A DNA stretch of 52,914 nucleotides, taken from assembly GCA_017463365.1 (NCBI GenBank), contig JAFTPH010000047.1, positions 1 to 52,914 of the forward strand, read 5' to 3'. Shown here piece after piece: positions 2,570-12,762 of the stretch. This stretch comes from Bacilli bacterium (GTDB taxonomy: Bacteria > Bacillota_I > Bacilli_A > ML615J-28 > CAG-313). The number at the start of each line of letters is the position of its first letter. Position 1 is the first letter of the stretch. The notes beneath the pieces are model-generated. The model was not told the origin of the DNA. It saw only the letters and a list, made by a program, of their open reading frames with translations, and did not search any database. The position numbers and the translations under genes are program-made.

Positions 2570-2920
2570 ATGGGACTAAATGTACAAATGGCATTAAAAA
2601 AGAATGTTTTAATTATTCGTCTCAAAGGCGAACTTGATCAATCAAGCGTTACTAATTTGAAATATCGCGTTAGTGAGATTATCGATAAATATCATATTAA
2701 GAATTTAGTTATTAATATGCAAGAAGTGGCGTTTATGGATAGTAGTGGGATAGGGTTTATTATAGGACGTTATTCACAGATAAAAAAACGTAAAGGGCAT
2801 ATTGTTATATGTTCAATGAATGAAATGGTTCAACGAATTTTTAATTTGTCGGGATTAAAAAAAATTTGTTTTGTAACAAAAAATGAAATTGAAGCGGAAG
2901 AAAGGTTGGAGATTGCGTAA
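2570..2920 (+). CDS. spoIIAA: anti-sigma F factor antagonist SpoIIAA
   Basis: SpoIIAA is a STAS-domain protein. In its unphosphorylated form it binds SpoIIAB and releases sigma-F in the forespore. The 116-residue length matches Bacillus SpoIIAA. The phosphorylation motif MDSSGIGFIIGRY places the target serine at residue 58, the same number as in B. subtilis. A ribosome binding site (AAGGAAGAG) lies just before ATG 2570. It is the first gene of a spoIIAA-spoIIAB-sigF-spoVA run, and its TAA shares a base with the spoIIAB ATG, implying translational coupling. Confidence 0.95.
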   Translation: MGLNVQMALKKNVLIIRLKGELDQSSVTNLKYRVSEIIDKYHIKNLVINMQEVAFMDSSGIGFIIGRYSQIKKRKGHIVICSMNEMVQRIFNLSGLKKICFVTKNEIEAEERLEIA

Positions 2921-3354
2921 TGAAAAATTATATGAAAGTTTCTTTTTCAGCGAAGGTAGAAAATGTGGTATTTACTAGAACTGTTGCTTTAGGCTTTTTA
3001 GTAAATCTTGATTTGGAAATTGGGATTTTAAATGAAATTAAAACTGCTATTTCCGAAGCAATAACAAATGCGATTGTTCACGGATATCAAAATGATGAAA
3101 CTAAAACAGTTGATTTAATAATGTATTATGATGATACAAAAATTACAATGGAAGTTATTGATTATGGAATAGGTATTGAAAACATTGAAAAAGCAAAAAC
3201 ACCACTTTTTTCATCGAAAGTTGAAGAAGAAAGAGCAGGACTTGGTTTTACCATTATGGATGTCTTTAGTGATGAACTTATTGTGGAATCTGAACTTGGA
3301 AAAATGACTAAAGTAGTGATGGTGAAAAATTATCATGAATCAAGAGAACATTAG
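2920..3354 (+). CDS. spoIIAB: anti-sigma F factor / serine kinase SpoIIAB
   Basis: SpoIIAB binds and inhibits sigma-F, and phosphorylates SpoIIAA using ATP. The 144-residue protein has the GHKL ATPase boxes: N box SEAITNAIVHGY (Asn50), G1 box DYGIGI (Asp81) and G2 box AGLGFTIM (about 106-113). The start codon overlaps the spoIIAA stop by one base and the 3' end overlaps sigF by 20 bases. This overlap keeps the stoichiometry of the partner-switch module under coupled translation. Length and motifs agree with the family. Confidence 0.95.
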   Translation: MKNYMKVSFSAKVENVVFTRTVALGFLVNLDLEIGILNEIKTAISEAITNAIVHGYQNDETKTVDLIMYYDDTKITMEVIDYGIGIENIEKAKTPLFSSKVEEERAGLGFTIMDVFSDELIVESELGKMTKVVMVKNYHESREH

Positions 3355-3928
3355 TAGTTATGAATATTTAATAAAGGAGAATCAAGGGTTAGTTTATCAT
3401 GTGGTTAAAAGATTCCATGTATCATCATTTGATCGTGATGATTTAATACAAGCGGGATTAATGGGATTATTAGAAGCTGCTAAAAAATATGATGTGTATC
3501 GAGATTCATCATTTAGTACATATGCTATTCCTTATATTATAGGTAGTGTTAAAAAAGAATATTCGAAACAAAACTATATTATAACGGGTGACTACTACCG
3601 TAAATTAATCAAAAATGTTCAAAATGATAACGATAAGTTAAGTTATTTAGAACTTGCTAAAAAGTATAAAACAACAGTTGAAAATGTAATTGTTGCTTGT
3701 AATTTTCACAATAATATTTCATTCTTAAAAGAGGAAGAGGTAGATTTAATAAAAGATAATAGTACATCTAAACTAGATTTAAGTTGCCTTGATAAAGAGG
3801 AATTAATTATTTACCAAATGTGGGTTAATATGAAATGTTCTCAAAAAACAATTGCTGAAAGACTAAATGTAAATCAAAGTACTATAAGTAGAAAACTAAA
3901 AAAGATTGCGAAAAAAGTATTGGATTAA
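3335..3928 (+). CDS. sigF: RNA polymerase sigma-F factor (short form)
   Basis: This is the first forespore-specific sigma factor of sporulation. Region 2 is clear (DRDDLIQAGLMGLLEAAKKY, then FSTYAIPYIIGSVKKEY), and region 4 has a helix-turn-helix (CSQKTIAERLNVNQSTISRK) near the C-terminus. At 197 residues it is well below the roughly 255 of Bacillus SigF. The N-terminal extension is missing and the region 3 plus linker part is compressed. Gene order after spoIIAA and spoIIAB makes the assignment secure despite the divergence. ATG 3335 lies inside spoIIAB, with GGTG upstream as a weak ribosome binding site. The spoVA genes follow after about 45 bases, an arrangement typical of Bacilli. Confidence 0.9.
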   Translation: MNQENISSYEYLIKENQGLVYHVVKRFHVSSFDRDDLIQAGLMGLLEAAKKYDVYRDSSFSTYAIPYIIGSVKKEYSKQNYIITGDYYRKLIKNVQNDNDKLSYLELAKKYKTTVENVIVACNFHNNISFLKEEEVDLIKDNSTSKLDLSCLDKEELIIYQMWVNMKCSQKTIAERLNVNQSTISRKLKKIAKKVLD

Positions 3929-3973
3929 GAATAAATAACACAATTTTTGGCAACAATAAAATTGGTGATAATT

Positions 3974-4429
3974 GTGAATCGAAATGATGAAAAACAAATA
4001 TTTAAAAAAGCATTAGACAATAATAAAGTAAAACGACCAGTCTTAAAAAATACGTTAAAAGCCTTTTTGGTTGGGGGGATAATTTCAGTTATTGCAGAAG
4101 CATTTCTTTCATTTTACTTAGAAGTATTAGGCCTTGATAAAGATATAAGTAGTAGTTTGATGAGTATCACGATGGTTTTTATCGCATCTTTATTAACTGG
4201 TTTAGGAGTTTACGATCGTCTTGGACAATTTTCTGGAGCTGGGACTATTGTGCCAATAACTGGTTTTTCTAACTCTATGACTTCTTCCGCATTAGAAAGC
4301 AAAAGCGAAGGTTTAATTCTTGGGGTAATGACTAATATGTTTAAACTTGCAGGAGCAATCATTGTAGCAGGAGTGGTAAGTGCGTTTGTGGCGGGTAATA
4401 TTATATATTTGATTGGGATTTTGGTATGA
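3974..4429 (+). CDS. spoVAC: stage V sporulation protein AC
   Basis: SpoVAC is a membrane subunit of the SpoVA complex, which imports Ca-dipicolinate into the forespore and releases it at germination; in Bacillus it behaves as a mechanosensitive channel. The 151-residue protein has a hydrophilic N-terminus and several membrane segments (AFLVGGIISVIAEAF, SLMSITMVFIASLL and a C-terminal helix pair). I use GTG 3974, with GGTGAT at 3964-3969. It gives the usual family length and N-terminus; a TTG at 3947 would add nine residues. The stop overlaps the spoVAD start as ATGA. Confidence 0.9.
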   Translation: MNRNDEKQIFKKALDNNKVKRPVLKNTLKAFLVGGIISVIAEAFLSFYLEVLGLDKDISSSLMSITMVFIASLLTGLGVYDRLGQFSGAGTIVPITGFSNSMTSSALESKSEGLILGVMTNMFKLAGAIIVAGVVSAFVAGNIIYLIGILV

Positions 4430-5436
4430 GAAAAGTAGGAAAAAATAGCGTAGCATTTGATAATGTTTTCTTGCATAGTTGGGGGACTTCATGTGGCCCA
4501 AAAGAAAAAGAAGGGCCGATTGGAACATATTTTGATGTTAGTTTTAATGATTTATATTGTGATGAAAAAACATGGGAGACCGCAGAAATGAATTTAATGC
4601 GTACCGCGTTAGTTGAAGCAATAAGAAAAGGCAATTTAAGTATTTCAGAAGTGGAACTAGCCGTTGGAGGCGATTTAAATAATCAGATTGCGGTATCGAA
4701 TTATTTAATGAATGATTTTCCTATTCCGTTTATTGGAATATATGGAGCATGTAGTACAGCTGTACTTAGTTTAATTAATGCATCTACCTTTATTGATTCT
4801 GGATATGGTAAATATATAGCTTGTATGACTAGTTCTCATAACTCAACTAGTGAACGACAATTTCGTTATCCTACAGAATATGGGGGACAAAGACCGCCAA
4901 GTATTACAACGACAGTAACTGGATCAGGGGTCGGAATTTTAACAAATAAAAAAACAGAAATTAGAATATCTAAAGCGACAATTGGTTGTGTAACAAGTTC
5001 AGGTGAGAATGATGCTAATGATATGGGTCGGACTATGGCTCCTGCTGCTTCAATGACTTTAAAACAGCATTTAGAAGATTTTAAGATTTCGCCAGATGAA
5101 TATGATTTAATTGTTACAGGAGATTTATCTTTATATGGTTCAAAAGTTTTTAAAGATATTTTAAAAGAATATAAAATAGATGTGGAAAATAATTATCAAG
5201 ATTGTGGATTGATGATATATGACTTACAAAACCAAGATGTAATTGCTGGAGGATCAGGGTGTGGATGTGCAAGCTTAGTGATGTATGGATACATTTGTAG
5301 TTTACTTCGTTCTAAAAAATTAAAAAAAGTCCTCGTTATTGCAACAGGAGCTTTGTTAAACCCAGTAATGGTAGCTCAAGGAAAAGAGATTCCTTCAATT
5401 GCTCATGCGGTATGCTTAGAGGGGGTAAGTGAATGA
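4426..5436 (+). CDS. spoVAD: stage V sporulation protein AD
   Basis: SpoVAD is the soluble, membrane-associated subunit that binds dipicolinic acid. It has a thiolase/ketoacyl-synthase fold. The 336-residue length equals that of Bacillus SpoVAD (about 338). The fold signature IGIYGACSTAVLSLINAS is present, with Cys109 at the position of the thiolase nucleophile, and so are the C-terminal glycine-rich GGSGCGCASLVMYGY segment and the internal TVTGSGVG turn. ATG 4426 overlaps the spoVAC stop and the 3' end overlaps the spoVAE start, both as ATGA, so the three are translationally coupled. Confidence 0.95.
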   Translation: MRKVGKNSVAFDNVFLHSWGTSCGPKEKEGPIGTYFDVSFNDLYCDEKTWETAEMNLMRTALVEAIRKGNLSISEVELAVGGDLNNQIAVSNYLMNDFPIPFIGIYGACSTAVLSLINASTFIDSGYGKYIACMTSSHNSTSERQFRYPTEYGGQRPPSITTTVTGSGVGILTNKKTEIRISKATIGCVTSSGENDANDMGRTMAPAASMTLKQHLEDFKISPDEYDLIVTGDLSLYGSKVFKDILKEYKIDVENNYQDCGLMIYDLQNQDVIAGGSGCGCASLVMYGYICSLLRSKKLKKVLVIATGALLNPVMVAQGKEIPSIAHAVCLEGVSE

Positions 5437-5783
5437 ACTTTTTAATGGCTTTTTTAATTGGTGGTTTAATTTGTGCATTTGCACAAATATTAATGGATGT
5501 TTTTAAACTTTTACCTATTTATATTACAGTTTTGTTTGTATGTGCTGGTTCTTTTTTAGAAGCATTTAATTTATATGATAAGCTTATCGAAATTGGTCAT
5601 GCAGGAGCAATGGTACCAATATCATCTTTTGGACATTCATTAACTCATGCCGCATTAGAAGCATCTGTTAATGATGGATATATTGGAATGTTACTAGGCA
5701 TTTTTGATTTAACGGCACCAGGTATTTCAGCAGCAATCCTTTTTGCTTTTATTATGTCATTAGTTTTTAAACCAAAGGGGTAA
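5433..5783 (+). CDS. spoVAE: stage V sporulation protein AE (SpoVAEb)
   Basis: This 116-residue membrane protein is homologous to SpoVAC and corresponds to Bacillus SpoVAEb, the third essential component of the minimal AC-AD-AE dipicolinate channel. Three to four hydrophobic helices are visible. The conserved stretch GHAGAMVPISSFGHSLTHAA resembles the AGTIVPITGFSNSM segment of the neighbouring SpoVAC, showing the shared fold. No separate SpoVAEa gene follows. It overlaps spoVAD by four bases and is followed four bases later by spoVAF. Confidence 0.93.
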   Translation: MNFLMAFLIGGLICAFAQILMDVFKLLPIYITVLFVCAGSFLEAFNLYDKLIEIGHAGAMVPISSFGHSLTHAALEASVNDGYIGMLLGIFDLTAPGISAAILFAFIMSLVFKPKG

Positions 5784-5787
5784 GAAT

Positions 5788-7170
5788 ATGCGTGAATATG
5801 ATTTCATAAAAGATACAACAAGACTTGATCAAATCTTAGGAATTGGTCAAGTTTTTGATATTAGTAAACGAGAATTTATTATTGATAATAAACAAGCTAT
5901 ATTATATTTTATGCCATTTTTGGTTAATGCTTCAGATATTATTGATTTATTTTTTGGTTTTTACATGACTGAAGAGTCATCATTACCACTAACTTCTAAA
6001 ATGGCTCATCAAAGTATTACTTTGGAACAGTCTCTTGATAAAGTTGCTTTAAGTATTCTTGAGGGATTAGTGGCCGTAGTAATTGAGGGAGAAAATGATA
6101 TTTATTTATTAGACAGTCGTAATTATCCAAGTAGAGGGATTAACGAACCTGAAACCGAAAAAGTTGTAAGGGGTAGTCGTGATGGTTTTTGTGAGACGAT
6201 GGCAATAAATATCGCACTAGTAAGAAGAAGAATTAAAACTGGTAATTTAAGAACTAAACTTTACCGAATTGGAAAATTATCTGAAACTAATGTAGCTTTA
6301 ATATATTTAGAAGATTATGTTGATAAAAAGGCTTTAAAAAGTATTGAAAAAGCTTTAGATAGGGTTGATATCGTTGAACTTACAATGACTGATAAAGCAC
6401 TAGAAGAAATTGTAATTGGACATAAGTATACCCCATATCCTTTAGTTCGTTATACAGAACGACCTGATACCTTTTCAGCTCATTTATATCAAGGGATGTT
6501 CGGTTTAATTGTTGATAATTCTCCTAGTGCTATTTTGGGACCTGTTTCTATTTTTGACCATATGCAGCACGCTGAGGAGTTTCGTCAGACTCCGATTGCG
6601 GGAACATATTTGCGTATTTTAAGATTTATAGGTATTTTAGCTTCCTTCTTATTAATGCCACTTTGGTATATGTGTATTAAAATGGATTATTTACCATTCC
6701 CTTCTAAACTCTTTGAAATAGATAGTTCTGAAAACTTATTCTTACAAGTAATCTTAATAGAAGTGGGGATAGAACTTTTAAGAATGGCCTCCATTCATAC
6801 TCCTAATGCTTTATCTACCTCAATGGGTTTGATAGCTGGAATTGTAATTGGTAATATTGCGATTGAACTGGAAATTTTCACTAATGCTATTGTTTTTGTA
6901 GGGGCAATTTCCGCTATTGGAACATACATTACGCCTAGTTATGAACTTGGTCTTGCAAACAAAATATTAAAAATTGCTTTATTATTTTTCATTTATTTAT
7001 TTGATTTTTGGGGTTTAGTTGCGGGAATAGTGTTTTTAATAATTTATCTTGCAAGTTTAAAGAGTTTTGATCGCTCATATTTATTTCCATTAATACCATT
7101 TAATTTTAAACAATTAGTTAAACAAGTAATTAGAGTTCCATATCAAAATAAACATCCTAAAAGAAAGTAA
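5788..7170 (+). CDS. spoVAF: stage V sporulation protein AF (GerA-A family)
   Basis: SpoVAF belongs to the A-subunit family of spore germinant receptors. In Bacillus it sits in the inner spore membrane and, with partners, helps amplify ion release in germination. The 460-residue protein has a soluble N-terminal part to about residue 265, with DSRNYPSRGINEPETEKVVRG as the typical GerA-family signature. A C-terminal membrane domain of about five helices follows and ends in a basic tail. It is slightly shorter than Bacillus SpoVAF (about 490). It is the last gene of the unit; the next promoter is at 7180. No spoVAA or spoVAB is present upstream. Confidence 0.9.
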   Translation: MREYDFIKDTTRLDQILGIGQVFDISKREFIIDNKQAILYFMPFLVNASDIIDLFFGFYMTEESSLPLTSKMAHQSITLEQSLDKVALSILEGLVAVVIEGENDIYLLDSRNYPSRGINEPETEKVVRGSRDGFCETMAINIALVRRRIKTGNLRTKLYRIGKLSETNVALIYLEDYVDKKALKSIEKALDRVDIVELTMTDKALEEIVIGHKYTPYPLVRYTERPDTFSAHLYQGMFGLIVDNSPSAILGPVSIFDHMQHAEEFRQTPIAGTYLRILRFIGILASFLLMPLWYMCIKMDYLPFPSKLFEIDSSENLFLQVILIEVGIELLRMASIHTPNALSTSMGLIAGIVIGNIAIELEIFTNAIVFVGAISAIGTYITPSYELGLANKILKIALLFFIYLFDFWGLVAGIVFLIIYLASLKSFDRSYLFPLIPFNFKQLVKQVIRVPYQNKHPKRK

Positions 7171-7208: not shown

Positions 7209-7246
7209 ATAGTTAATAAGAAATAAAACAAATAATGAGGAGACAT

Positions 7247-8911
7247 ATGAGCAAAATTAAAATCTACGCGCTTGGTGGTCTAGGTGAAAATGGAAAAAAC
7301 ATGTTTTGTGTTGAAGTAGATGAGCGTATTTTTGTTTTTGATGCGGGGTTAAAATATCCAGAAAAAGATATGTATGGAATTGATGCGGTTATCCCGAATA
7401 TTGATTACTTAATTCAAAACAAAGAACGAATAGAGGGAATTTTTATCTCTCATGGCCATGATGACCATATTGGAGCGTTACCATATTTATTAAAAAATAT
7501 TAATTTACGAGTTTACGCAACTCATTTCACAATGTGTTTAATTGAATCTTTACTTCAAGAAAACAATATGAATATTAAACGTTATAAATTATATCGAATT
7601 AATGATACGAAAGTTTTAAAATTTGGTGATGTCAGCATTTCGTTCTTTAATACTACGCATAGTATTCCTGAATCAGTCGGAATTGTGGTATCAACTAAAG
7701 ATGGAAATATTGTATTCGCTCCAGACTTTAACTTTGGAATTGAAAAAAATGCTAAATATTTAACATCATTTGAGAAGATTACTAATAATAAAAATGTATT
7801 AGCTGTTTTAGCAGAAAGTATTGGTATTAGTGATATTGACCGTTCAACAAATGATTTATTATTTGAACATACTTTTAAAAACATTTTAGATAGCAATGAA
7901 CATCGCATATTTGTATCCGTTTTTTCAACTGATTTGTCAAGAATTCAAAAAATGGTTGATATGTGTGTTGAGAAAAACCGTAAAGTTGCGTTTATGGGAC
8001 GAAAAGCCGAAGAAGTTGTTGGGATTGCGATTAACTCTGGATATTTAAAAATTCCAGATGAAATTTATTATCTTTTAAAACCATATGATGAAAACAATAA
8101 AAATGAAGTAGATAATCTTGTTGTTTTTGTTACAGGTACTTTAAGTGAACCATATAATAGTTTAAGTCGTATCTGTGCTAATAAAGATCGTTTTATTCGT
8201 TTTACTCCGAAAGATAAAGTAGTATTTATATCAGATCCAACAACAGTTACTTTACGAAATTATATTAAAACTATGGATGATCTTTATCGTAAAGATGTTG
8301 AAGTTGATACAATTTCTAAAAAGAAACTAAGAACATCTCACGCAACAGCAGAAGATTTATATTTACTTTATTCAATGTTGAAACCTAAATATATTTACCC
8401 AATTATTGGTGAATATCGTCACTTATATCGTCATAAAGATTTACTTAAAACATTTGGTTATGGTGATGAACAAATTGTTTTATTAGATAATGGAGAGGTA
8501 AGTGTCTTAGAAGGTGGAGAATTAGTTTCAAAAGAAATAATTCCAACTGGCGATGAATATGTTGATGGAACACTGATTGGAAATGTAAGTAGTGAATTAG
8601 TAAGTGAAAGAGAAAGACTTTCAGAAGAAGGGGTTGTAATTATTGTTGCTTATCTTGATATGCGTCGTAGAATAGTTGTTGAAAATCCCGTTATAAATTC
8701 TAAAGGTTTTGTCTATACAACAGATTTAGAAACTTTTAATCAAACAATAAGTGAATTCTTCTTAAGAATGATGAAGAACTCCTTAAATAAACCAAAATTT
8801 GATAAAGAACAAGTTATTTTATCTTTAAGTGAAGAAATTGGAAAAATAGTTTATCGTATTTCTAAAAAACGACCCGCTATTTTGCCGGTATTAATTGAAA
8901 TTAAAAAATAA
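7247..8911 (+). CDS. rnj: ribonuclease J
   Basis: RNase J is a metallo-beta-lactamase/beta-CASP nuclease with 5'-3' exonuclease and endonuclease activity in mRNA decay and rRNA maturation. The 554-residue protein has the metal motif SHGHDDHIGALPY (His69, His71, Asp73, His74) and FAPDFNFG. It also has the beta-CASP FVTGTLSEPYNSLSR region, a late HATAEDLYLLYSMLKPKY block and a C-terminal domain. I use ATG 7247, which lies four bases after the strong GAGGAGA (7237-7243); ATG 7235 would overlap that site. Bacillus RNase J2 (rnjB) lies near spoIIIE, and here a SpoIIIE-like gene follows about 1 kb downstream. J1 versus J2 cannot be settled by eye. Confidence 0.93.
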   Translation: MSKIKIYALGGLGENGKNMFCVEVDERIFVFDAGLKYPEKDMYGIDAVIPNIDYLIQNKERIEGIFISHGHDDHIGALPYLLKNINLRVYATHFTMCLIESLLQENNMNIKRYKLYRINDTKVLKFGDVSISFFNTTHSIPESVGIVVSTKDGNIVFAPDFNFGIEKNAKYLTSFEKITNNKNVLAVLAESIGISDIDRSTNDLLFEHTFKNILDSNEHRIFVSVFSTDLSRIQKMVDMCVEKNRKVAFMGRKAEEVVGIAINSGYLKIPDEIYYLLKPYDENNKNEVDNLVVFVTGTLSEPYNSLSRICANKDRFIRFTPKDKVVFISDPTTVTLRNYIKTMDDLYRKDVEVDTISKKKLRTSHATAEDLYLLYSMLKPKYIYPIIGEYRHLYRHKDLLKTFGYGDEQIVLLDNGEVSVLEGGELVSKEIIPTGDEYVDGTLIGNVSSELVSERERLSEEGVVIIVAYLDMRRRIVVENPVINSKGFVYTTDLETFNQTISEFFLRMMKNSLNKPKFDKEQVILSLSEEIGKIVYRISKKRPAILPVLIEIKK

Positions 8912-8953: not shown

Positions 8954-9562
8954 ATGTTTGTAAATAATATAAAAGATTATAATTTAGCGTCTTTATTTCA
9001 AGTTGTTAATATTTTAAATGAAAAGCATCCTTTATGGTGGCAAACATTCTTAGAAAAAGTAATGTTTAATTCAAGTGTTACTTTTGTTAATTATACAACT
9101 TTGATAATTAGAATTTATGATTTAGAAATACATAATCTAGTTATTCTCTATAATGTTTTAAAATTATTGAAAAAATACCGTTTAGTAAATAAAGTGATTA
9201 ATAAAAAAGAATTTTTAATTGTTCATTTAAATGACGAAAAAATAATAAGTTACCTAACAGATTCTAAAAAATGGCTTAATCTTGTGGTATATAAATATTT
9301 AAGTGATGTTTATGATCTAAATACACTCACTCTAGAACCAACTGAAGATGAAAATTTACGTTTTGTATATCAGGGAACAATCTATCATATTTATACCTCT
9401 CCAAAAGAAAAGATGAATTCTAATAAATATCATAAATATATTTATTTGTATAAAGATAAAGGGAAAACATCGTCTGTTTTACTAGATAATGAGCTAAAAT
9501 ATGTACGAAATAAGTACGATTTTATTAAAGATTTTAAACGATTAGTTGAAAAAAATTTTTGA
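8954..9562 (+). CDS. hypothetical protein, 202 residues
   Basis: I do not recognise this protein. It is soluble-looking, basic and rich in Tyr, Lys, Asn and Leu, with no signal peptide or clear membrane segment. It looks alpha-helical in its N-terminal half (SLFQVVNILNE, LVILYNVLKLLKKYRL) and beta-rich after about residue 110. ATG 8954 has a GAGGTG ribosome binding site inside the terminator-like hairpin that follows RNase J. It occupies the place between RNase J and the SpoIIIE-like gene, where Bacillus carries tepA and ylzJ, but I see no resemblance to either. A function should not be assigned. Confidence 0.65.
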   Translation: MFVNNIKDYNLASLFQVVNILNEKHPLWWQTFLEKVMFNSSVTFVNYTTLIIRIYDLEIHNLVILYNVLKLLKKYRLVNKVINKKEFLIVHLNDEKIISYLTDSKKWLNLVVYKYLSDVYDLNTLTLEPTEDENLRFVYQGTIYHIYTSPKEKMNSNKYHKYIYLYKDKGKTSSVLLDNELKYVRNKYDFIKDFKRLVEKNF

Positions 9563-9645: not shown

Positions 9646-9801
9646 ATGCGTATCAATTTATTATTGAAATGTTCTGAATGTGGTAATGAAAATTATTTAA
9701 CAGAAAAAAATAAACGTAATACTCCAGATAGATTAGAGTATAAAAAGTATTGCCCACATTGCAAGAAATCAACTATCCATAAGGAAAAAACAAAAAAATA
9801 A
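9646..9801 (+). CDS. rpmG: 50S ribosomal protein L33
   Basis: L33 is a small 50S subunit protein. The 51-residue product starts [13 protein letters not shown]. It has the two zinc-ribbon pairs, CSEC (Cys9, Cys12) and CPHC (Cys36, Cys39), so this is the Cys-positive, zinc-binding form. ATG 9646 follows a near-consensus ribosome binding site (TAGGAGGAAC, 9631-9640). It has its own promoter and terminator. The usual neighbours secE and nusG are not next to it. Bacteria of this group often carry two or more L33 genes. Confidence 0.93.
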
Positions 9802-9831
9802 AAGAATTGGAATTATTCCAATTCTTTTTAT
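9801..9831 (+). terminator. intrinsic terminator after rpmG
   Basis: A perfect 12-bp stem (9801-9812 with 9816-9827, loop TTA) starts at the last base of the rpmG stop codon and ends in a T-rich tract. It makes rpmG a single-gene unit. Confidence 0.85.
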
Positions 9832-9903
9832 TTTTCTCTAGCATATAATTACATTTTTCTTATCTTCAAAAGTATACAATAGTATTGTTTAGGAGATGAG
9901 TTT

Positions 9904-11646
9904 ATGTCAAAAGAAAAAAGAATGGTTTTAGAACAAAATAAAAAGGAGTTAACTTTTTATTACGAATTAATTGGAGTTTCAACGATTTTATTATCGTTAT
10001 TAGCTTTGGCCCGTCTTGGTTTAGTAGGATATTACATTATGATGGCTTTTAGAATAATGTTTGGTGATTGGTATTTTGCTTTTTTGTTAGCATTATTATT
10101 ATTTGGAATATACTGTCTATTTAAACATCAACCATTAAATGTTAAAAATATGCGATCTGTCGGAATTATTTTATTAATGATTGCGGTTTTAACAATATCA
10201 CATTTTCCCATGCATGAATATGTAAATCAGTTTGGGACAAGCTATCTTAAAATGACATTTAGTTTATATTTGGATTATTTTAAAAACTATCAAGAAGGTA
10301 TGATTGTTGGTGGGGGAATAATCGGAATGCTTTTTTTCTATTTGTTTTATACACTTTTTTCAAGTGTAGGAACAGTGGTAATTGTTTTATTTATTGGTAT
10401 GGTTGGAGTTTCTTTTAGTTTTAATAAAACAATTGGTGAATCTTTAGGTTTTATTAAACGGATAAGTTTAAAAGTTTTCAAAATCTTTACGAAGTTTGGT
10501 AAGACTCTTAAGTATGGTATTGTAGTTAAAGGTAAAGCCCAAGAAGAGGTAAAACCTAAAAAGAAGGAACGCTTTCCTAAACTCACTATTGATTGTTTAA
10601 GTGAACCATTTCGTCGAAACTATGTTATTACCGAAGAAAAACACGCAGTTAGCTTAAAAAAAACTATTGCTAGTGTACTAAATAATATGAATGTCTTTTA
10701 TCAAGGAATAAGTTATATTGTAGGTGAACATGTAACAACTTGTAAAATTGAAACAGTTAGTAATATTAATTTGGATAAACTATATTTAAAATTAAAATCA
10801 ATTTTATCAGAACGTTTTTTAATTACTAAAGACATAGATAGTCCAAAAATTAAAATTGAAATTGATAATATTGATACTAATCCACCATTTATTAAAACGA
10901 TTCTCTTATTACAAGAAAAATATACCAACAATTTAAAACTCGGAATGGGAATTGATACAAATAATGAGTTAGTTGAAATAAATTTTTTAGAAGAAAATAA
11001 TTTTTTAATAATTGAAGCAAATGTTGATAATGTAGTTAAGTTAATGAATAGTTATATTTTAATGTTGATGATTAAATTAACTAAGATAAAATATGAAATA
11101 AAGTTTTTTGATGTAAATAATACTTATAAACAATTTGAAAAATGGGAATGCTATTATAAAGATTTAAACTTTGAATTTGTTGGAATTGGAAAAGATATTG
11201 AAAAAAGATTAGAATTGTTAAATCAATATAATTGTAATGATATTTATGAATATAATAAAAGAAGTAATGATAATTTCAGAATTAAATTTATTTTTATCCT
11301 TAATTTAGAAGCAATCTTAAAAAAACCTAAAGAATTAGAAATGTTGCTTTATTTTTTACGGGTGGGTAGTAAATGTGGATATTATTTTATTGTTCATTAT
11401 TTTGATAACTATAGTTTAAATAGTATTTTAGATAGTTTGTTTATGGTAAAAATATTTGGAAAAAACTCTGGAAAAGTTGGGGAACAATATATTGGAATTG
11501 ATCCAGGAAATTATTTATATGAAGATGAAGCATTTTACTTATGCAAAGATGAATTATTTAGATTTAGTTTAGTAAATATTACCGATGATGAACAAAATAA
11601 ATTACAAAAACTGATGGAATATGATATAAAATCACTAGCCAAATAA
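9904..11646 (+). CDS. SpoIIIE/FtsK-like protein with degenerate ATPase motifs
   Basis: The 580-residue protein is collinear with SpoIIIE/FtsK translocases. It has four to five N-terminal membrane helices (residues 20-175), a basic linker (about 205-225), an alpha-like domain (about 245-330) and a RecA-like domain (about 345-575). The usual LGxDxxG lead-in is seen as LGMGIDTNNE. Where FtsK has the Walker A GTTGSGKS, this protein reads ANVDNVVK (372-379), so the glycines and lysine are lost. Where FtsK has VDEFADL, it reads LNLEAIL (466-472). The ERRYxLM...YN helix is recognisable as EKRLELLNQYNCNDIYEYN. There is no C-terminal gamma domain, and SpoIIIE is longer (about 790). It lies downstream of RNase J, as spoIIIE does near rnjB in Bacillus. 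I infer an inactive or structural homologue. Confidence 0.75.
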   Translation: MSKEKRMVLEQNKKELTFYYELIGVSTILLSLLALARLGLVGYYIMMAFRIMFGDWYFAFLLALLLFGIYCLFKHQPLNVKNMRSVGIILLMIAVLTISHFPMHEYVNQFGTSYLKMTFSLYLDYFKNYQEGMIVGGGIIGMLFFYLFYTLFSSVGTVVIVLFIGMVGVSFSFNKTIGESLGFIKRISLKVFKIFTKFGKTLKYGIVVKGKAQEEVKPKKKERFPKLTIDCLSEPFRRNYVITEEKHAVSLKKTIASVLNNMNVFYQGISYIVGEHVTTCKIETVSNINLDKLYLKLKSILSERFLITKDIDSPKIKIEIDNIDTNPPFIKTILLLQEKYTNNLKLGMGIDTNNELVEINFLEENNFLIIEANVDNVVKLMNSYILMLMIKLTKIKYEIKFFDVNNTYKQFEKWECYYKDLNFEFVGIGKDIEKRLELLNQYNCNDIYEYNKRSNDNFRIKFIFILNLEAILKKPKELEMLLYFLRVGSKCGYYFIVHYFDNYSLNSILDSLFMVKIFGKNSGKVGEQYIGIDPGNYLYEDEAFYLCKDELFRFSLVNITDDEQNKLQKLMEYDIKSLAK

Positions 11647-11688: not shown

Positions 11689-12762
11689 ATGAAAAAAACT
11701 AGATTTATTTTATTATTATTAGTATTAATTGGATTAGTATTCGTAACTGGATGTAGTGAGCAACAACTTCCAGGTGATGATACTGATGATCCAGATGTAG
11801 TAGATTGTGAAAAAAATCCTGAACACGAATCTTGTAAGGATCCTGGAGATGATAAAGATCCAGATCAAAATCCAGATGGGGATTACCCATATTCATTAGG
11901 GTTTACAATTTATGAATTACAAGATAGCAATGGTAATCTCCTAAATGGTTATGCGGTTGGAGATTATAAAGGTACAGATACTGAAGTATTAGTTCCAGCT
12001 GTATGGAAAGATAAACCAGTTATTAAAATTATTGATAAAACATTTGAAAATAACGATAAAATTACAAAAGTAGTTATTCCATCAAGTGTTAAATTATTAG
12101 GTAATAATGTATTTGCAAAATGTAAGTCTTTAACAGAAGTAGAATTTGCAGGAGTAAGTGAATTACAAGTTATTCCAACAAATGCTTTCTATGAATGTAC
12201 TTCATTAAAAAGCTTTACTGTTCCTGCAAGTGTAATTAAAATTGAAAAAACAGCATTCTATGGATGTTCTAGTATTAGAGAATTAGCAATTCCTGCTAGT
12301 GTTAAAGCAATTGGTGAAGGTGCTTTTGCAGCAATGACATCTTTAAGCAAAATTACTTTACCATTTGTTGGTGGAGGAGCGACTGATAGTACTACTGCTG
12401 ATTTATTTGGGTTTGTGTTTAATACAGTTTATACCGAATACACAACACCTATTGACCAAAAAGTATCTGATAAGAACACAATTACTTACTATATCCCTAC
12501 TGCTTTAAAAACTGTTGAAATATTAGATGGGCCAATTGGTTTAGCGTATGGAGCATTTAGTGGTCTTACAAATGTGGAAAAACTTATTTTACCGAAGAGT
12601 ATTGAGCGCTTTGGAGATAATTGTTTCTATGGAGTAAAAGGATTAACTGATATTTACTTCCGTGGAGAAGATTATGAATGGGCAAAGATAGCTGGAAAAT
12701 ATACTGAAGGTAATGTGGATACGCTTGATGCGGTAGAAGTTACATTTAACTATGCTGAGTAA
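11689..12762 (+). CDS. surface lipoprotein with BspA-type leucine-rich repeats
   Basis: This 357-residue protein begins with a lipoprotein signal peptide, with lipobox VTGC and the lipidated Cys at 22. A strongly acidic, Pro- and Asp-rich linker follows (about 30-66) and should act as a flexible spacer from the membrane. From about residue 100 there are LRR_5/BspA repeats of the form VxIPSSVKxLGxxxFxxCxSL, about five to six copies including a divergent last one. Such domains mediate protein or host-surface binding, but no ligand can be read here. Strong ribosome binding site AAGGAGAG. It is a single-gene unit with its own promoter and a terminator shared with rarA. Confidence 0.85.
   Translation: MKKTRFILLLLVLIGLVFVTGCSEQQLPGDDTDDPDVVDCEKNPEHESCKDPGDDKDPDQNPDGDYPYSLGFTIYELQDSNGNLLNGYAVGDYKGTDTEVLVPAVWKDKPVIKIIDKTFENNDKITKVVIPSSVKLLGNNVFAKCKSLTEVEFAGVSELQVIPTNAFYECTSLKSFTVPASVIKIEKTAFYGCSSIRELAIPASVKAIGEGAFAAMTSLSKITLPFVGGGATDSTTADLFGFVFNTVYTEYTTPIDQKVSDKNTITYYIPTALKTVEILDGPIGLAYGAFSGLTNVEKLILPKSIERFGDNCFYGVKGLTDIYFRGEDYEWAKIAGKYTEGNVDTLDAVEVTFNYAE

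Follow-up and report, generated by a model that had tools for sequence, protein, structure and literature searches.

SpoIIIE is the textbook DNA pump of sporulation, which moves DNA into the developing spore, and the relation of its membrane role to its motor role has been argued from Bacillus subtilis mutants. The window analyzed here (the whole stretch of 52,914 nucleotides) raises the question of what a SpoIIIE is kept for once its motor has gone. On its forward strand, at 9904-11646, lies an open reading frame of 580 codons with an ATG start and an AGGAG ribosome site, whose product an earlier note on this DNA had read as a SpoIIIE/FtsK-like protein without working ATPase motifs. Judged by profile alignment, fold and its place in a clade of 36 similar proteins, we identify the 580-aa product as a motor-dead orthologue of SpoIIIE, and refer to this form below as dead SpoIIIE.

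Most searches that started from the single sequence returned nothing. Pfam gave an FtsK_4TM match in the N-terminal part that was below the cut-off (E = 7e-4) and no match on the motor half, NCBIfam gave no match for the window protein, phmmer found no relative of it in the PDB, a single-sequence search of the genome contigs found none there, and BLASTP gave no match to the active FtsK of its own genome. A profile of 25 relatives, compared by hhalign with the active SpoIIIE of another family in the class, aligned across residues 17-577 (99.9%, E = 7.6e-35). We built an AlphaFold2 model from the alignment of these 25 relatives (mean pLDDT 85), and the best Foldseek matches of this model in the PDB were FtsK motor domains (6t8g, E = 7e-17, TM 0.75 on the target). 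The likeness to FtsK/SpoIIIE claimed earlier, from the membrane helices through the RecA-like domain, is thus borne out end to end. An unrelated family that merely resembles FtsK is ruled out by the profile alignment, the fold and the gene order described below.

The protein has an N-terminal four-helix membrane domain, recognized from the helices of the model, the FtsK_4TM match below the cut-off and the hhalign coverage. This FtsK_4TM-like domain spans residues 21-172 (9964-10419, forward strand, as are all features of the gene) and is the best conserved part of the protein among the dead forms. Within it are an FGDWY motif at residues 53-57 (10060-10074), a predicted outer loop that joins membrane helices 3 and 4, at residues 100-135 (10201-10308; topology inferred from SpoIIIE), and a GGGxxG motif where helix 4 begins, at residues 136-141 (10309-10326). 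The alpha-beta, RecA-like motor fold is also present, as the match to 6t8g indicates, with an alpha subdomain at residues 240-355 (10621-10968) and a beta (RecA-like) subdomain at residues 356-560 (10969-11583), both delimited from the model, Foldseek and hhalign.

The catalytic parts of this fold have been erased. Aligned with active SpoIIIE, the Walker A site, GxTGSGKS in the active protein, reads EANVDNVV at residues 371-378 (11014-11037) and lacks even the lysine; the earlier note was right about the erasure and one residue off in its placement (ANVDNVVK, 372-379). The Walker B site (11287-11307), also reported as erased, does not follow the hhhhDE pattern and reads FILN, with L466-N467 in the place of DE. 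The gamma domain is missing as well, in agreement with the original reading: a median of 16 residues follows the last motor column in the dead proteins, vs approximately 117 in active SpoIIIE.

Orthologues, 514-633 aa long, came from the family and order of the window and also from other families of the class. Among the named carriers are Mycoplasmatota bacterium zrk6, Candidatus Bathyoplasma, Inordinaticella, Haloplasmataceae, relatives of Anaeroplasma and Acholeplasma, and a termite-gut "Erysipelotrichales" genome; a Candidatus Izemoplasmataceae-type family has orthologues too. Both Walker motifs were missing in all 36 orthologues of the tree set, none of which retained the D or the E of Walker B. 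Since the same losses recur in 36 of 36 orthologues, a local sequencing error or frameshift in the window is ruled out. The erosion is graded, from GNDINSKI and LILND (Walker A and Walker B sites) in Haloplasmataceae through GSKNSGIK and IIINH in family f2 to EANVDNVV and FILN in the window. At residue 483, an arginine that is invariant in active SpoIIIE gives way to tyrosine or phenylalanine, both aromatic, in 36 of 36 dead proteins, which on this alignment is a shared derived change of the dead clade.

We built a maximum-likelihood tree from 64 proteins, in which the 36 dead ones formed one clade (100/100) inside the membrane-anchored, four-helix SpoIIIE, and the soluble SftA proteins formed a separate clade (100/100). 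This tree rules out an origin of the dead protein from SftA. The stem of the dead clade is long, and its exact position within SpoIIIE is therefore unsure. One assembly (G038) has two dead spoIIIE copies that are 93% identical, on contigs C11 and C183 (loci L009 and L076), either from two strains in the bin or from a duplication.

Gene order tells of the same descent. In a related family (G052), the active spoIIIE locus reads asd-dapG-dapA-RNase J-spoIIIE-bmp-nup, and two Haloplasmataceae loci (L086 and L087) have this gene order with the dead gene at the spoIIIE place. In most of the loci that we read, dead or active, RNase J was the immediate upstream neighbor. It lay upstream in dead loci of families f1, f4, f8, f21 and Lab288 and in active loci of families f6, f12, f14 and f19; in the dead loci of family f2, it was not adjacent. 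The place of the dead gene in a shared gene order settles its descent from spoIIIE, and by tree and gene order together it is a true orthologue. The window has its RNase J gene upstream, at 7235-8911 on the forward strand (Pfam RNase_J_b_CASP 2.5e-21, RNase_J_C 4e-17), as the earlier note had stated, with a 202-aa reading frame and the gene for ribosomal protein L33 in between.

A tree of the neighboring RNase J joins an active family, f12, to Haloplasmataceae, weakly supported (91/89), and a single clade of the carriers of dead SpoIIIE is not rejected (AU p = 0.107), so the motor may have died once or twice. We would place its death long ago, as a single event or a few at the most; if it happened twice, the two events would have been nearly simultaneous.

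The immediate surroundings of the gene are less widely shared. The 202-aa protein (8954-9562) is of no known family; two related genomes have a relative of it at this position (L067, 29%; L068, 33%), and the other dead loci read lack it. The end of the L33 gene was recognized by eye at 9700-9801, and a strong terminator-like hairpin comes next, at 9800-9828 on the forward strand, one of four such hairpins found in the region vs 0.5 expected. With this hairpin just upstream, dead spoIIIE is probably transcribed on its own, from a promoter within 9829-9903. Directly downstream, at 11689-12762, is a gene for a BspA-type leucine-rich-repeat lipoprotein; relatives do not conserve it at this place and have RarA/MgsA next, on the opposite strand.

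Is the gene decaying? In three close pairs, the only ones we used for this measure, as synonymous sites were saturated in more distant pairs, the dN/dS of dead spoIIIE was 0.084, 0.046 and 0.047. For the cytoplasmic part alone, it was 0.047-0.092 in the same pairs. The reading frame was open in every orthologue. A pseudogene is ruled out by the dN/dS and the open frames, and dead spoIIIE is a maintained gene under purifying selection, as had been proposed from the 580-codon frame of the window. We looked for each of three outcomes that speak against the original reading, namely a fold other than that of FtsK, orthologues with intact motifs and a dN/dS near 1, and found none.

What selection acts on has changed. 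Mean pairwise identity of the membrane domain was 0.36 among dead proteins vs 0.25 among active ones; for the motor, it was 0.24 vs 0.61, and for the beta subdomain 0.24 vs 0.69. Of 630 dead pairs, 97% had a membrane domain better conserved than the motor; of 190 active pairs, none did. The predicted outer loop had an identity of 0.28 in the dead clade vs 0.14 in active SpoIIIE, and its H100 is invariant across the dead clade. The FGDWY stretch reached 0.56 vs 0.30; its G54 is invariant and its D55 present in 97% of the dead clade, a position that is unconserved in active SpoIIIE. Selection has shifted from the motor to the membrane domain.

The Mollicutes are regarded as bacteria that have no wall and do not sporulate. 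Beside the dead gene of the window, at 2570-7170 on the forward strand, Pfam identified spoIIAA, spoIIAB, a sigF-like sigma factor, spoVAC, spoVAD, spoVAE and gerA. Across 43 genomes of the order, 19 had both dead SpoIIIE and SpoIVA, three had dead SpoIIIE alone, one had SpoIVA alone and 20 had neither (Fisher P = 4e-8, kinship ignored). Dead SpoIIIE was thus present in 19 of the 20 genomes with SpoIVA and missing from 20 of the 23 without it, and the three genomes with the dead form alone are assemblies that are 70%, 82% and 87% complete. With Spo0A as the marker in the same genomes, the counts were 21 with both, one with dead SpoIIIE alone, three with Spo0A alone and 18 with neither. Class-wide, among sampled genomes of 90% completeness or more, the five families that have the dead form gave counts of 30/1/1/17, listed in this order (P = 5e-11, kinship ignored). 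Dead spoIIIE and the sporulation markers have been lost together in several separate branches, and in related families with SpoIVA but no dead form, an active membrane-anchored SpoIIIE takes its place. Dead SpoIIIE is therefore kept by spore-formers and tied to sporulation. One genome with SpoIVA, Spo0A and YunB (G020) yielded neither a dead nor an anchored active SpoIIIE, only the soluble SftA; either the assembly has a gap here or this spore-former has no SpoIIIE at all. According to a published survey, most Anaeroplasmataceae genomes contain sporulation genes; SpoIIIE and FtsK go unmentioned in its main text (PMC10868615).

The earlier note had proposed a search for an active FtsK in the rest of the genome. 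Besides the dead gene, one FtsK passed the family cut-off there, a protein of 704 aa (G000:C10, locus L001) with GTTGSGKS, IIIDE and a tail of gamma length; it has no membrane helix and is SftA-like. The two proteins belong to the same family and the same genome. Unlike the dead protein, SftA has no membrane helices, has intact Walker motifs and a gamma domain, and falls in a separate clade; the dead protein has the membrane domain and neither the intact motor nor the gamma domain. In the genomes with dead SpoIIIE in which another FtsK could be read, it was always soluble, and it was intact where complete, some copies being on broken contigs. SftA is present in non-sporulating genomes too, and we found no special N-terminal feature in the SftA of genomes with dead SpoIIIE vs that of non-sporulating relatives.

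Based on these patterns and on the B. subtilis literature, we propose that dead SpoIIIE probably serves sporulation as a motorless septal channel or membrane-fission scaffold. In B. subtilis, SpoIIIE unable to use ATP assembles normally and supports septal membrane fission, with DNA translocation failing, and fission needs SpoIIIE on both sides of the septum (PMC4423119). Its N-terminal domain localizes the protein and promotes fission (PMC4744071). The dead clade resembles the ATP-minus state made permanent in evolution. Fission by the ATP-minus protein, together with the pattern of the dead clade, leads us to this reading, in which the septal location, the fission or channel role and ring formation are what we infer. 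The motor would have died long ago in a spore-forming lineage related to the Mollicutes, the septal membrane part would have been retained, and the motorless protein would act at the septum as a channel or fission scaffold. An earlier guess of a septal scaffold, a channel part or a partner for an active paralogue fits the constraint on the membrane domain, the restriction to spore-formers and the soluble intact FtsK, and such a role is a putative one. It is important to note that nearly every one of these genomes also has FisB/YunB, a protein dedicated to fission, and fission therefore need not depend on SpoIIIE. The genome G020 and the unremarkable N terminus of SftA also count against our reading.

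How DNA would enter the forespore in these organisms is a separate matter. If DNA movement still occurs, its power may come from the soluble SftA-like protein, the sole intact FtsK found in these genomes. In B. subtilis, SftA, which has no membrane domain, does not rescue DNA trapped by the septum (PMC4744071), so pumping by SftA is a guess. It is conceivable, though clearly less likely than not, that the pump has been split into a motorless septal SpoIIIE channel and a soluble SftA motor, or that the chromosome enters the forespore without a septum-anchored pump.

A closer union of the two proteins is the strongest rival to a motorless channel or scaffold, and we consider it unlikely. Here dead SpoIIIE subunits would co-assemble with SftA into a mixed FtsK ring, anchoring or gating the active hexamer, and the two genes would amount to a split pump. 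Retention of the RecA-like fold under purifying selection agrees with such a ring, as does the finding that the only intact FtsK is soluble, making anchor and motor complementary. However, the residues common to active rings have mostly been lost in the dead clade, SftA looks alike in relatives without dead SpoIIIE, and its presence in non-sporulating genomes shows that it is not tied to sporulation.

A second rival, which we rate as more doubtful still, has dead SpoIIIE recruited to another sporulation conduit that joins the mother cell to the forespore, for example replacing the SpoIIIA-SpoIIQ feeding channel. SpoIIIAE was missing from all class genomes sampled (G000-G312) except those of family f12, which is what makes the idea attractive. 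Approximately 90 of the sampled genomes have SpoIVA and YunB/FisB, and these spore-formers appear to dispense with the SpoIIIA-SpoIIQ channel. However, SpoIIIAE is missing from families with active SpoIIIE as well; motor death and SpoIIIA loss are thus uncoupled, and loss of the SpoIIIA channel as the cause of motor death is unsupported.

Two further readings fare worse. Nucleotide binding or motor activity through non-standard motifs is very improbable: the half-eroded sites of Haloplasmataceae keep one lysine (in GNDINSKI) and an ND at the Walker B site, but no conserved motif exists at either site within the dead clade, and the window protein has neither the lysine nor the acidic pair. That the gene is a functionless relic heading for loss is hardly credible, since the fast divergence of the motor half (identity 0.24) and the loss of the gene in non-sporulating relatives are set against a dN/dS of 0.05-0.08 that is low in the motor half too, frames that are open across several families, and a membrane domain better conserved than that of active SpoIIIE.

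The reading as a motorless channel or fission scaffold can be set against known systems. SpoIIIE of Bacillus and of related families (e.g. G052, locus L090) shares with the dead form the four-helix membrane domain, the alpha-beta motor fold, the RNase J gene order and the link to sporulation; the dead protein differs in having lost Walker A, Walker B and the gamma domain, and in conserving the motor half poorly and the membrane half better. The ATP-minus mutants of B. subtilis (the SpoIIIE36 class) are likewise membrane-anchored and do not translocate DNA, and fission is kept in the B. subtilis mutant (PMC4423119). These are laboratory point mutants, whereas the dead clade is a natural loss of the motor in a protein kept by whole families. 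Degenerate Walker motifs in FtsK-type domains with structural or assembly roles also occur in EssC D3 and the EccC DUF (PMC9436818, PMC11154593). Those modules are extra ones, in a chain with active ATPases and devoted to protein secretion, whereas in dead SpoIIIE the whole DNA-translocase motor is dead. NCBIfam gave weak EssC/EccC matches in some dead proteins and none for the window protein, and the dead protein has a single FtsK domain instead of the EssC/EccC tandem array with FHA or DUF modules.

The earlier note knew of no described motor-dead SpoIIIE. This stands for the natural form, of which we found no description in the open-access literature, a search that is no proof of absence; it does not stand for the laboratory mutants of B. 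subtilis, which have been well studied (PMC4423119). Degenerate FtsK modules of type VII secretion and laboratory SpoIIIE mutants were already known.

The existence of this clade suggests that the job of SpoIIIE at the spore membrane is separable from DNA pumping. It puts the paired-channel/membrane-fission model to an evolutionary test, and it points to FGDWY, H100 and GGGxxG as working parts of the membrane domain. It also raises the question of which route the chromosome takes into the forespore without an anchored, ATP-driven SpoIIIE, and it bears on sporulation among the relatives of the Mollicutes.
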